Below are positions 1-61,281 of a stretch of DNA of 64,000 nt, in pieces (the stretch's first letter is position 1; every line of letters begins with the position of its first letter). The stretch comes from an uncultured Flavobacteriales bacterium (GTDB taxonomy: Bacteria > Bacteroidota > Bacteroidia > CAIKAF01). The position numbers and the translations under genes are program-made. The stretch is from assembly GCA_903837495.1 (NCBI GenBank), contig CAILUT010000047.1, positions 1 to 64,000 on the forward strand. The letters run 5' to 3'. The notes beneath the pieces were generated by a model, which saw nothing but the letters and a program-made list of their open reading frames with translations, did no database searches and had not been told where the DNA came from.

Positions 1-110
1 AGCTCCCAAAATTGAAAGCTAAAAATTACATCTAACATAAACAGTTATGGCAATTGGTACTTTTGATTGAATTGGATTAAAAAATTTGACGACAGTATAA
101 TAGCACGACC

Positions 111-173
111 GCATAACAGCGCACAAGCGCAACCCGAAAAGGGTATGCGCCTGTGCGCAAAACGTTACCTGCA
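111..173 (+). repeat. attC-like structured site 1 (hairpin GCGCACAAGCGCAACCC-GAAAA-GGGTATGCGCCTGTGCGC, flanked by GCATAAC and GTTACCTGCA)
   Basis: Imperfect inverted repeat at 119-158 flanked by a TAAC (5') and GTTA (3') core. GTTACCTGCA at 164-173 is the exact reverse complement of TGCAGGTAAC at 1725-1734. Confidence 0.6.
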
Positions 174-197
174 AGCAAAAAATAAAAAACACCAACA

Positions 198-383
198 ATG
201 AGAGTAAATGAATATTACATTAAAGCAAGGCTAATGCCCGCTATCATTACATCAATTCCAATTTTGAGCTTTTACTATTTTGGACTTAGTAAAAAATTGG
301 GAGAATATATGTCTTTTTTGGAAGGTTACAGTATAAAAAATCAAATTAGAGAGAAAATTAAAATAGCTAGCACCTCAAAATAA
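198..383 (+). CDS. hypothetical small protein (61 aa), possible cassette cargo
   Basis: Short ORF in AT-rich DNA between the two attC-like sites; no recognised family. Confidence 0.35.
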   Translation: MRVNEYYIKARLMPAIITSIPILSFYYFGLSKKLGEYMSFLEGYSIKNQIREKIKIASTSK

Positions 384-450
384 GTTTTACCCAAGTTTTT
401 AATAAAGAAGGATTACCTTTACACAATTAGTATCTTCTAAACAAATAAAT

Positions 451-1720
451 ATGAAAATTTCACAAAGCAAATTGATCTGTTTGTCCATACTGGCTAAACC
501 TCTTTTATATAGTTCTCTTCCGTTTATTTTTACACTTTTTACTTTTTCATCTGTTTCAGCTCAACAAAGGCTTCTTTCTATAAAAAAATACGATTATAAT
601 TTACCAAATATTGGAGATTCAAGTGTGTTCATCTATGGAAATAACCCCGGAACTTTATCCTCAAATGAACCAGTTTTTGAATTTGATGGAACTTTTTTCA
701 ATTGGTTTTACATAAAACCATTAATTAAATGTGATATAGAATATAGATTTGGAGGTTCATCATCTACACCATTCGATACAATAAATTATCAGTTAACCGC
801 TGGCTTGGTTACATCCAACGAAAGCACTTTGAATCCCACGAAAAATTTATACGCCTACAATACAAACAACAACCTTGTTAGTAGCGAAAAACAAGTGCTT
901 TACAGTTTTAGTCCCAATTGGCAAACAGAATCTAAAGAAGAAAATGAATATTATTCAAATGGTCTCAAAAGTGAAACACGAAGATTTTAGTGACCAAATC
1001 TTACTGATATCTATCGATTCTATGTTCTACAATAATAACAATAAGTTGATAAAATTTAAAAAAACCGAATTTAATATATCCACCGGACAACCTACTACTA
1101 TTTTTGAATCAATTATCAGTTACAATGGAAATGAGGTAAGTAATGTGAAAACCTTTTTTGGCAACAGTTTTACTTTTTTCAACTTGCAATTAAATTGGGA
1201 TATAGATTATAACTATGTAGCAGGAAAGGTCAATCAAATAACAGGAACAGGTATAGGTGGAGAAATGGTATTGATTGATTATACCTATGATAATTTGAAT
1301 CAAAAAATTCGTTCTGTGATAGGTTATAAAAATGGTGCATTAGATAGAAAGGAAGAATATGAATATGACAACAATGGATTTATTACTAAAGAAAAGCTTC
1401 AAACAAGTTCTTCACCCGGTGTTTTGTATGTAACTAATGAAAACAAATTCTACTATGAACAAAGCACTACATCAACAGGTATTTATGAAAATTCAAATTC
1501 ATTTTTTTCTGTATTTCCAAATCCGGCATCTGACCAAATTACTATAGAGACCAATGAATATTTAATGGGTAATGAATTCGCTATTTATAATTCGATTGGA
1601 AAATCTGTTCGTAAAGGTTCGATTACAACTAAAGAAACTATTGTAAATTTAAATGACTTAGCGACCGGAATTTATATATTAAGCATAAATAATCAAATAT
1701 ATAAAGTAATTAAGCAATAA
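451..1720 (+). pseudogene. T9SS type A sorting-domain secreted protein, interrupted by a +1 frameshift near 985-988
   Basis: ORFs 451-990 and 875-1720 overlap. Removing one T from TTTT (985-988) joins ...KSETRRF to SDQILLISIDSMFYNNNN.... N-terminal signal peptide; C-terminal FPNPASDQITIE...GIYILSINNQIYKVIKQ is a Por-secretion CTD. Confidence 0.65.
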
Positions 1721-1724
1721 AGCC

Positions 1725-1860
1725 TGCAGGTAACAGCACCTACAAAAAATTGCCGGTTCAGTGGTTAAATGAAGCTTTGTGCTTCGTATCAAGTTCAGTG
1801 GTGGCAGACAGTTTTGTGCTCCGAAATCGCCAACTTCTTCTAGCTGCAAACCGTTAGCGG
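1725..1860 (+). repeat. attC-like structured site 2, with two internal 31-nt direct repeats
   Basis: Begins TGCAGGTAACAGC and ends CCGTTAGCGG. Internal repeats GTTCAGTGGT(8 nt)G(C/T)TTTGTGCT(T/C)CG at 1756-1786 and 1793-1823. Confidence 0.55.
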
Positions 1861-1896
1861 TAATTTTCCATACAGATCAATCAAGGAGTCAGGCTT

Positions 1897-2154: not shown

Positions 2155-2162
2155 TACCTTTG
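2155..2162 (+). promoter_or_regulatory. Bacteroidetes-type -7 element TACCTTTG of the hipBST operon
   Basis: Matches TAnnTTTG consensus; 18 nt upstream of ATG 2181. Confidence 0.6.
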
Positions 2163-2178
2163 TACCCCAAAGGGTGTA
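2161..2178. promoter_or_regulatory. palindromic operator-like site O4 (TGTACCCCAAAGGGTGTA), overlapping the -7 box end / TSS
   Basis: Same palindrome family, 40 bp downstream of O3. Confidence 0.65.
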
Positions 2179-2180
2179 CT

Positions 2181-2390
2181 ATGAGTCTATCAGACTTTGT
2201 AAAAGACAAACGCAAAACGGTGAAGCTCACCCAGCCCGAGCTGGCCGAAAAGGCCGGGGTAGGCTTGCGTTTTATCCGTGAACTGGAACAAGGCAAGGAA
2301 ACCTTGCGGCTGGATAAGGTAAACCAGGTACTGCAACTTTTCGGCTACGAGGTAGGGGCCGTTCCCAAAACCGCCACAGCCGATTCCTGA
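2181..2390 (+). CDS. hipB: HipB-like XRE-family transcriptional regulator / antitoxin
   Basis: HTH_XRE: MSLSDFVKDKRKTVKLTQPELAEKAGVGLRFIRELEQGKETLRLDKVNQVLQLFGYEVG. ORF track starts at TTG 2160; ATG 2181 preferred. Confidence 0.85.
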   Translation: MSLSDFVKDKRKTVKLTQPELAEKAGVGLRFIRELEQGKETLRLDKVNQVLQLFGYEVGAVPKTATADS

Positions 2391-2413
2391 TTCAAAATTC
2401 CAGATTCAACCAA

Positions 2414-2746
2414 GTGCGTAAAGCTGCCATAAAAATAGAAGCTCAATTAGCCGGATGGCTCACTCAAGATGAGCAAGGGTATCATTTTATGTACGACCAG
2501 GCGTATGCAGCACAACCGGGAGCCCGACCGGCAAGTTTAACCTTGCCGCTGCGTGAAGCACCTTACACATCAAATGTATTGTTCCCTTTTTTTGATGGCC
2601 TGATACCGGAAGGTTGGTTGCTGGATATAGCAGAAAAAAACTGGAAACTGAATCCGAGAGATCGAATGGGATTATTGCTGGCATGCTGTAAAGATTGCAT
2701 CGGCGCAGTGAGTGTGGAGGAAGTTAAAGAGGAGGATACACCATGA
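2414..2746 (+). CDS. HipA N-terminal-domain protein (HipS-like, stand-alone N-terminal subdomain)
   Basis: IEAQLAGWLTQDEQGYHFMYDQAY...SLTLPLREAPYTSNVLFPFFDGLIPEGWLLDIAEKNWKLNPRDRMGLLL is typical of the HipA couple/N1 domain. GTG start. Confidence 0.85.
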   Translation: MRKAAIKIEAQLAGWLTQDEQGYHFMYDQAYAAQPGARPASLTLPLREAPYTSNVLFPFFDGLIPEGWLLDIAEKNWKLNPRDRMGLLLACCKDCIGAVSVEEVKEEDTP

Positions 2747-3684
2747 GCAACTGTCTGTTTTGTTATCAACCCCTGGCTGAGAACGAGCAGGATTTTCATA
2801 TTTCCTGCTCCAAGAAGATGTTCGGTCAGCCCACTCCGCCAGCGTTGCCCTATACTGATGAAGACCTAGAGCCATTGGCCAAAGAAGTGATACAGAGCCA
2901 AACAGCAGTAACAGGAGTGCAGGCCAAACTGTCCCTGCACATCACCGGCAATACTAAAGAAGTAACAGAACGAAGATTTACCATTGTGGGCTTATGGGGT
3001 GGGTATATTTTGAAACCGCCCACCGCTTTGTATCCGCAATTGCCTGAAGTGGAAGATGTAACCATGCATTTGGCTCAATTAGCCAAAATAAAAACTGCAC
3101 CACATAGTTTAATTCGTCTGCAATCGGGCAACCTGACGTATCTAACCAAGCGGATAGACCGAACCAAAAAGGGCAAATTGGCCATGGAAGACATGTGCCA
3201 ACTTACCGAACGGCTTACGGAGGACAAATACCAAGGCAGCTATGAGCAGATTGCTAAAGTCATTCAAAGGTATTCAGCAACTCCCGGATTGGATTTGGTG
3301 AACTTTTTTGAACTGCTGATCTTCTCTTTCCTAACGGGAAACGCCGATATGCATTTGAAGAATTTCTCCTTACTGGAGCAGCCGGGTTTGGGCATGACGT
3401 TGTCACCAGCTTACGATTTGGTGAATACCGTTTTGGTTAATCCGGCCGATAAAGAAGAAATGGCATTAACCCTAAATGGGCGAAAGAAAAAACTGAATAA
3501 ACAAGACTTTGTGGCGGCCATGAACACCTTAAAGATGGACGGAAAGCAACAGGATAACATCTTTACTAAGATGGCAAAGGCCCTACCTCAATGGCTGGAA
3601 TTGATCGACAGGAGTTTCATGACAGATGAATTCAAAGAAGGGTATAAAATCATTTTAACAGAACGAACTGGGCGCGTGCTGTAG
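2743..3684 (+). CDS. HipA C-terminal kinase-domain protein (HipT-like toxin)
   Basis: N-terminal CxxC...C motif; TGVQAKLSL P-loop-like; GNADMHLKNFSLL catalytic and AYDLVNT metal-binding motifs. ATGA overlap with upstream gene. Confidence 0.85.
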   Translation: MSNCLFCYQPLAENEQDFHISCSKKMFGQPTPPALPYTDEDLEPLAKEVIQSQTAVTGVQAKLSLHITGNTKEVTERRFTIVGLWGGYILKPPTALYPQLPEVEDVTMHLAQLAKIKTAPHSLIRLQSGNLTYLTKRIDRTKKGKLAMEDMCQLTERLTEDKYQGSYEQIAKVIQRYSATPGLDLVNFFELLIFSFLTGNADMHLKNFSLLEQPGLGMTLSPAYDLVNTVLVNPADKEEMALTLNGRKKKLNKQDFVAAMNTLKMDGKQQDNIFTKMAKALPQWLELIDRSFMTDEFKEGYKIILTERTGRVL

Positions 3685-3777: not shown

Positions 3778-3938
3778 GCCCCCCCGCCGCCCGCGGTGGG
3801 GATGGACCAGGGTTGCCCGCAAAGCCCGAACGGCGGGCTGCGCCAGGCGCAGGGGGCGACCTTGGGAGCCACCCGAAGCCGGCTGCAGCCCCCCGTTCGG
3901 GCTGCGGACTACCCAAGGACAGCCCCTAAACCGCCCTA
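3778..3938 (-). repeat. GC-rich long-hairpin element, copy A
   Basis: Reverse complement contains GGGTGGCTCCCAAGGTCGCCCCCTGCGCC core; arms CAGCCCGAACGGGGGGCTGCAGCC / GGCGCAGCCCGCCGTTCGGGCTTTG are complementary. Confidence 0.75.
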
Positions 3939-8343: not shown

Positions 8344-8499
8344 GGGGGGCGCCTTTTCCCGCTTTCACCTGTAGGTCCACCCAGCCCAACCTGTGCAGGG
8401 GCAGCGGCTGCGGTGGCTCCCGGGGTCGCCTCCTCGCCACGCCTGCACCGGGTTGGGCTGGGCGTCCCTGCCGGTTCAATCGGGGGCGCGGGCCGCTCA
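8344..8499 (+). repeat. GC-rich long-hairpin element, copy B
   Basis: GGCGCCTTTTCCC...GGTGGCTCCCGGGGTCGCCTCCTCGCC...GGGGGCGCGGGCCGCTC; arms CCCAGCCCAACCTGTGCAGG / CCTGCACCGGGTTGGGCTGGG. Confidence 0.8.
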
Positions 8500-19690: not shown

Positions 19691-19845
19691 GATTGCGGCA
19701 GGGATTGAACAAGGTAGCCCGCAAAGGCCATGCTGGCTGCCGGGCTGGGAGCAAAAGAGCGACGCGAGGAGCTACTTTTGCCCCTGGCCCGGCCCAGCAT
19801 GGACTGCGGACTACCTGTGAAAGCCCGGCTGCCGCCCCAATCTAA
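19691..19845 (-). repeat. GC-rich long-hairpin element, copy C (most diverged)
   Basis: Reverse complement GGGGCGGCAGCCGGGCTTTCACAGGTAGTCC...GTAGCTCCTCGCGTCGCTC...; long complementary arms with CATGCTGG and GGGC/AAAAG blocks. Confidence 0.7.
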
Positions 19846-45200: not shown

Positions 45201-45301
45201 AAAAGGGCAAGTTACTTGCATCGCACCGCTACAACCTTCTACCCTTGCTTCATTCCTGACCTAGGGGAGTTCAAAGGGAGCTGGTCGTACAAGACTTGCC
45301 C
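45201..45301 (-). ncRNA. ffs: signal recognition particle RNA (small bacterial type)
   Basis: Minus strand GGGCAAGTCTTGTACGACCAGCTCCCTTTGAACTCCCCTAGGTCAGGAATGAAGCAAGGGTAGAAGGTTGTAGCGGTGCGATGCAAGTAACTTGCCC then T6. Contains SRP core GGTCAGGAATGAAGCAAGGGTA; ends pair; TATCTTTG promoter box immediately upstream. Confidence 0.85.
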
Positions 45302-45305
45302 GTGC

Positions 45306-45313
45306 CAAAGATA
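45306..45313 (-). promoter_or_regulatory. -7 element TATCTTTG of the SRP RNA gene
   Basis: TAnnTTTG consensus just upstream of the RNA 5' end. Confidence 0.6.
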
Positions 45314-51957: not shown

Positions 51958-51994
51958 ACGTAAAAGTCCTTAAATGCACACCCCCCGGCGCACG

Positions 51995-52165
51995 ATCGGT
52001 TAGGCTGGCAGGTCTCCTGGCTCTTTCCCTGTCGGCGGCCTTCCCATTTCATCGAAACAGTGGCTCAGCATACCGACGCTTATCGGAAATTACAGTTGCG
52101 GGGACAGCTTGTGCTTTTACACAATTCCCTTTTCATTTTGCCCGTAAGCAAAACACCAGCGTGCA
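51995..52165 (-). promoter_or_regulatory. cobalamin (AdoCbl) riboswitch
   Basis: Minus strand: ...AAAAGGGAATTGTGTAAAAGCACAAGCTGTCCCCGCAACTGTAA...GAGCCACTG...GGGAAGGCCGCCGACAGGGAAAGAGCCAGGAGACCTGCC, the canonical conserved boxes. Confidence 0.93.
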
Positions 52166-52190
52166 AAGGTGCGTATATTTTTTGATTTTT

Positions 52191-61130: not shown

Positions 61131-61281
61131 AACGAGAGCGCCCCGGATGGCAGCGGCAGGCGGAGCAGACCGGCCGGCAGCTGGCCCAAGGCCGCGGAGG
61201 CGACCTTGGGAGCCCACGCAGGCCCAGGGCCAGCCCGGCTGGGCAAGCCGACTACAGCGGACAGCCGGAAATGGCGCCCAA
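61131..61281 (-). repeat. GC-rich long-hairpin element, copy F
   Basis: Reverse complement GGGCGCCATTTCCGGCTGTCCGCTGTAGTC...GTGGGCTCCCAAGGTCGCCTCCGCGGCC...CCATCCGGGGCGCTCTC. Confidence 0.8.

Follow-up and report, generated by a model that had tools for sequence, protein, structure and literature searches.

Cassette arrays point to an integron type, widespread in Bacteroidota, whose putative recombinase lacks the additional domain of IntI

An additional domain is taken as the defining mark of the integron integrase, IntI (PMC9668308; PMC2426708). According to the accepted account (eLife 2020 PMC7790495; Nat Commun 2016 PMC4792948), it was acquisition of the I2 helix that enabled integrases to recombine single strands. 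Surveys of Bacteroidetes have yielded little: the IntegronFinder 2.0 paper (PMC9024848) cites an earlier survey in which Bacteroidetes had only integrases lacking cassettes and a later one with a single complete case, Salinibacter. The taxon-specific attC models of 2021 cover 11 taxa, and Bacteroidetes go unmentioned in the text of that paper (PMC8352920). A search confined to the open-access literature returned no description of a Bacteroidota system combining a recombinase, attI and attC sites of the kind reported here.

This system resembles the classical integrons of IntI in many respects: a cassette array, an attI beside the recombinase gene, structured attC sites with conserved AAC/GTT, an apparent G/TT cut, cassette ends complementary to their own attC, and genes mostly in one orientation. 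It departs from them in its recombinase, which has no additional domain and does not reach the IntI cut-off score, in a site core of GTTRNNN rather than the classical GTTRRRY, in unpaired spacers of 1 and 5 nt, and in a recombinase gene that is transcribed toward attI. Transcription of intI toward attI is also known from Treponema (PMC3607928); however, the enzymes of the Treponema chromosomal integrons are treated as IntI (PMC3607928), to whose definition the additional domain belongs, whereas the Bacteroidota enzyme is without it. The state of the genome described below is like that of CALINs, clusters of attC sites without an integrase (PMC9024848), but differs in that attI and 3′ fragments of the recombinase are kept as solo platforms, and in that the enzyme family apparently responsible is not IntI. 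Finally, XerA and other Xer proteins are the closest solved structures by sequence and fold; unlike them, the Bacteroidota recombinase is tied to attI/attC arrays and usually has an extra N-terminal domain of ~90 aa.

Two sites and a cassette at the edge of contig 47

The DNA analysed (hereafter the window) is a stretch of 64,000 nucleotides from an uncultured Flavobacteriales bacterium (assembly GCA_903837495.1, contig CAILUT010000047.1). Base 1 of the window is the first base of contig 47 in a genome of 67 contigs and 2.5 Mb, and the array at its left edge (Table 1) therefore continues off-contig, where the preceding cassette is predicted to begin (G)TTATGC. We consider it highly probable, judging from sequence comparisons among many loci, that positions 111–1859 are part of a Bacteroidota integron cassette array.

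Table 1. Features of the cassette array at the left edge of the window.
Feature	Position	Strand	Remarks
Tail of preceding cassette	1..110	+	cut by contig start
attC-type site 1	111..170	+	R″ GCATAAC 111–117, R′ GTTACCT 164–170; 60 nt; bottom-strand hairpin
Gene cassette	165..1853	+	crossover G^TTACC to G^TTAGC; 10-nt complementary ends
Small ORF inside cassette	198..383	+	61 aa
Secreted protein with type IX secretion C-terminal sorting domain	451..1720	+	PF18962 8e-12
attC-type site 2	1728..1859	+	R″ AGGTAAC 1728–1734, R′ GTTAGCG 1853–1859; 132-nt class
Further cassette start (TTAGCGGTAATTTT)	1854..1868	+	fits cassette-start consensus; no matching attC in window

An initial, sequence-only reading of the window had proposed that the cassette bears perfect 10-nt complementary ends in the manner of integrons, and this is borne out: GTTACCTGCA (164–173) is the exact reverse complement of TGCAGGTAAC (1725–1734). 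The site lengths given in the same reading, ~62 and 136 bp, needed adjustment, site 1 measuring 60 nt and site 2 measuring 132 nt, not 136. The region encoding the secreted protein consists of two ORFs (451–990 and 875–1720), which are probably one gene with a frameshift near 960–990.

The bottom strand of site 1 forms a single long hairpin in which TAAC pairs with GTTA (−21.8 kcal/mol; z −6.2; equalled by 0 of 200 shuffles). The covariance model R1, whose training set does not contain site 1, finds it in a whole-genome search at E=1e-5, and it is the sole window site above the threshold of 10 (score 15.1) in a scanner that considers core and stem only. Site 2 is a member of the R1 training set, and its score of 121 bits is to be read as such. 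Taken alone it folds no better than its shuffles (z about +0.7); by alignment it belongs to a homologous family of 132-nt sites, with a slightly eroded stem, and a nearly identical site at another locus (L144) has the stem intact. The next cassette that had been expected after site 2 has a typical start (GTTAGCGGTAAT at 1853), yet the rest of the window offers it no complement of more than 7 nt: either the cassette has been truncated, or the array ends with site 2. The plain TAAC..GTTA pattern is not rare (0.5 occurrences expected per window), simple motif counts within the window were uninformative, and a strict pattern search of the same genome gave no matches.

Just past the array (2160–3684) lie an HTH regulator, a separate HipA N-terminal domain protein and a HipA kinase, which make up a tripartite HipBST-like toxin–antitoxin locus. 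The window also holds a cobalamin riboswitch (51990–52175, minus strand) and a Bacteroidales-type small SRP RNA (45201–45308, minus strand).

Elsewhere in the genome R1 finds further sites, giving 12 matches, 11 of which lie no more than ~4 kb from the end of a contig – the pattern to be expected where the assembly breaks at repeated arrays; a few weaker matches lack an intact core. A search with TIGR02249 did not find an intact recombinase in the assembly, its matches being XerC, XerD and short C-terminal fragments only. The matches to the IntI model on contigs C21 and C6 are an ordinary XerD and XerC respectively, and were rejected as integron integrases. Fragments of a recombinase 3′-end were examined at five places (on contigs C32, C5, C22 and C27, with a second on C32 at 12128), and all five have the same composition: what is left of the …SPFDDL end is separated by ~90 bp of related sequence from a start like that of a cassette. 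The cassette at the end of contig 32 begins TTAGCGTT and finishes with a 131-nt site that starts AACGCTAAC.

With at least two attC sites and no intact integron integrase found in an assembly in which gaps remain, the genome falls under the definition of a CALIN. Since only 3′ fragments with attI are assembled, the array is either a relict or is recombined in trans by an unassembled enzyme. The former – an eroded cassette relic in a genome where the system is dead – has, in our estimation, somewhat less than an even chance: the lone 3′ fragments, the eroded stem of site 2 and the apparently frameshifted cassette gene are what it would leave, but the clustering of sites at contig ends shows the assembly broken at arrays, so that an intact copy may be missing from it, and one genome of the same genus does have an intact recombinase.

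A GC-rich intergenic repeat of ~150 bp is scattered through this genus. It occurs upstream of a recombinase at one locus (L057, ~646–795), with shorter matches in the window near 3846–3893, 8409–8442, 19810–19842 and 61193–61236. Repeats of this kind upstream of recombinase copies were considered as an element boundary, and rejected because the repeat is genome-wide.

The complete system and its hairpin sites in relatives

Among Bacteroidota relatives the system is found complete: a tyrosine recombinase of 345–400 aa, an attI, and then up to 12 cassettes. Intact recombinases of 366–380 aa are present in the same genus and family. A scan of named Bacteroidota genomes gave 80 recombinase loci, in Flavobacteriales, Sphingobacteriales, Chitinophaga-like bacteria, Saprospiraceae and Cyclobacteriaceae-like bacteria, including isolates of Belliella pelovolcani, Schleiferia thermophila, Pedobacter psychrophilus and Flavobacterium species. 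When fragments are included, 75 of 94 platforms have the attI core TATAANNAGTTR ~100 bp past the recombinase stop codon; the remaining 19, on truncated contigs or diverged, have no recognisable core.

Complementary ends are a recurrent property of these loci. The nine starting bases of the first cassette recur downstream as a reverse complement in 37 of 58 loci, whereas mismatched starts do so in 1.2% of cases; in Belliella as many as seven successive cassettes can be traced end to end, and one sampled genome has 12 consecutive sites whose end complementarity is mostly 9–10 of 10. The longest cassette ORFs share one orientation in 46 of 51 cases. Pairs of attI regions, both between genomes and within one (L064/L065), are 90–99% identical through GTTR and drop to background identity directly after it, a pattern that argues for past exchange of cassettes at attI with the breakpoint at G/TT. 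The sites are thus not fixed at their loci, identical copies of attI carrying different cassettes, and the earlier suspicion of a non-canonical Bacteroidetes cassette system proved right, with a recombinase family of its own in relatives.

Sites are also strongly oriented with respect to the recombinase. Downstream of the recombinase the scanner recorded 75 sites, all of them on one strand, whereas 646 kb of upstream sequence yielded two; counted over independent genomes on shared contigs, 42 sites are downstream on the strand of the recombinase and six are placed otherwise. Three genomes among these six exceptions represent a variant of divergent orientation. This second variant, seen at three loci (L223, L224 and L225), has recombinases of ~290–320 aa with neither the additional nor the N-terminal domain; as in classical integrons, they diverge from their attC arrays, which are of similar type.

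Site lengths fall mostly near 78, 132 and 180 nt. In an alignment of 31 sites of 132 nt, 90.6% of cells are paired and 180 compensatory double changes are found; neither value is reached in any of 500 shuffles, and slid controls are 31–37% paired, a one-base shift of the partner giving 36–37%. An unpaired spacer of 1 base on one side and 5 on the other is kept in 43 of 55 sites, and 45 of 55 fold more stably as the bottom strand. Comparative evidence of this kind indicates that the attC hairpins are under selection. It also bears on the simplest alternative, that the window holds chance palindromes and a chance 10-nt match. The TAAC..GTTA pattern alone would allow this, but covariation, orientation and complementary ends contradict it across many loci, and its probability is close to nil.

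A second alternative accepts the sites but has them recombined as double-stranded DNA in a conventional Xer-type reaction, with the hairpins incidental – for example, as terminators. This would suit an enzyme whose closest solved relatives are XerA proteins and which is without the helix credited with single-strand recombination (PMC7790495). Yet the stem is conserved by compensatory changes and not in sequence, the asymmetrical spacer is retained and the bottom strand is favoured; we regard double-stranded recombination as improbable, and prefer recombination of a folded single strand.

Several genomes contain more than one solo platform, each composed of a recombinase 3′-end, a promoter-like box, attI and cassettes (L053, L055, L051, L054, L052, L061–L069 and L058). 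One of these (L058) sits inside a cassette of another platform, an arrangement reminiscent of the delta-attI cassettes in class 1 integrons. A TTTG within the final recombinase codons, paired with TAnnTTT[GA] just past the stop codon, is present in 50 of 79 loci as compared with 0.9% of random stretches, and is probably a cassette promoter. A promoter at this position, if correctly predicted, would account for the survival of solo platforms once most of the recombinase gene has gone. A conserved end, GTCAGACTGTCTAATAACC, followed by a transposase-like remnant, lies exactly in an attC R′ core in at least three genomes (L214, L216, L064 and L170); the element resembles an insertion sequence with attC as its target.

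A recombinase family apart from IntI and Xer

The Bacteroidota recombinases match TIGR02249 in two pieces and with 197–218 bits, below the IntI cut-off of 265. From the conserved arginine to the HxLRH motif there are 59–60 residues in 38 of 38 recombinases; the same interval is 101 in 22 of 22 true IntI, 61–62 in XerA and 66–69 in XerC/XerD. Alignment to the Vibrio integrase VchIntIA (PDB 2A3V) places the same gap at the additional domain. With that domain (patch III / I2 helix) absent and the score below the cut-off, identification as IntI was rejected. The family forms one clade (support 99) apart from both IntI and Xer; a sister relationship to IntI is weakly supported (SH-aLRT 81). The catalytic residues R, K, H, R, H and Y are invariant in an alignment from which one stop-containing locus is left out. 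XerA and VchIntIA are the closest solved folds and XerA the closest by sequence; the structure model has good local confidence with a pTM of 0.53, which leaves the placement of domains unsure. An Xer recombinase acting on chromosome dimers, the product of a single conserved housekeeping gene with dif as its site, was also considered and rejected: the genome has its own XerC and XerD, the family is a separate clade, and it is associated with arrays. NCBI already has a family, NF040815, named ‘site-specific tyrosine recombinase/integron integrase’.

Of 395 Bacteroidota genomes sampled, 188 contain R1 matches, 104 contain a match to the recombinase profile at E<=1e-75 (some lower-scoring relatives among them) and 110 contain a true IntI above the cut-off. 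Three genomes (G113, G173 and G303) have both a true IntI and the system with the Xer-like recombinase. R1 gave three weak matches in the flanks of 30 true IntI genes, and since it scarcely matches such flanks, it is not a general attC model.

These distributions raise the possibility that the cassettes are moved by a true IntI from other bacteria, the Xer-like recombinase beside them being a bystander. True IntI is common enough, at times sharing a genome with the Xer-like system, and the blaVEB cassette described below lies also in an array of IntI1 type (class 1), from which IntI1 can evidently use such sites. Against a bystander role, most loci have their attI immediately behind the recombinase gene, and in the class to which the window belongs true IntI above the cut-off is confined to one sampled genome (G052) while attC sites and the Xer-like recombinase are common. 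We hold movement by IntI to be very unlikely, and take the Xer-like recombinase as the candidate enzyme.

Resistance genes and a proposed mechanism

On an IncC plasmid of Klebsiella michiganensis (NZ_CP084417; L229:6700–7754) blaVEB-3 is the first cassette and lies directly behind a fragment of the Bacteroidota recombinase and its attI, which reads GGATATTAGGGAGTTAGCGGTAATTT; the gene starts ~110 bp after the truncated recombinase. The blaVEB cassette also occurs on an E. coli plasmid (NZ_MK388209; L233:4002–5078), in an array of blaVEB-1, aadB, arr-2, cmlA5, blaOXA-10 and aadA1 that we take, from its cassette content, to be a class 1 integron; the stretch examined holds the cassette array without intI1. 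Here the cassette has the same starting base as on the IncC plasmid, and finishes in a 133-nt site with a 10-nt complementary end (R1 5e-9). One cassette is therefore found in both types of platform, and its position suggests that the blaVEB ESBL cassette may be of Bacteroidota origin.

A comparable arrangement precedes tet(X3) in Acinetobacter (NZ_CP054138; L232:4929–6950): a relative of the recombinase, then TATATTTG, and then GTTATGTGCC, which resembles the start of a cassette. The neighbouring ‘xerD’ of this ISCR2-type module is a 51% relative of the recombinase family, and a TAnnTTTG box stands before tet(X3). An attC belonging to tet(X3) was not found in the Acinetobacter stretch, and the case for tet(X3) as a cassette of such a platform is suggestive only. 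In contrast to the Bacteroidota system, the plasmid recombinases are truncated and the modules were moved by other elements.

The mechanism that we propose begins with a tyrosine recombinase, Xer/XerA-like and without the additional domain of IntI, whose gene points toward an attI of its own, ~100 bp beyond the stop codon. Circular cassettes would enter at attI, at an A^GTTR boundary, with the cut between G and TT. Insertion would join attI to an attC folded as a single strand, most probably the bottom one. The cassettes would then be expressed from a Bacteroidetes-type promoter, with a −33 TTTG inside the final recombinase codons and a −7 TAnnTTTG directly behind the stop codon. That the Xer-like recombinase is the catalyst, that its substrate is single-stranded and that the promoter is active are all things we infer from sequence.

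Together these analyses indicate that an integron type is widespread in Bacteroidota and that its candidate recombinase is without the domain on which integrons were believed to depend. We lean slightly towards the view that this recombinase never had the I2 helix or additional domain, that single-strand recombination of attC evolved without it or evolved twice, that the system spread as solo platforms of promoter and attI, and that it gave cassettes, blaVEB among them, to clinical class 1 integrons. Because the system is common, its attC hairpins covary and its recombinase has no additional domain, the accepted account of the I2 helix becomes directly testable. The finding would extend integrons to a phylum in which surveys saw almost only integrases without cassettes and one complete case, and offers a possible source of resistance cassettes, exemplified by blaVEB, which has the same start at this type of attI and in a class 1 array.
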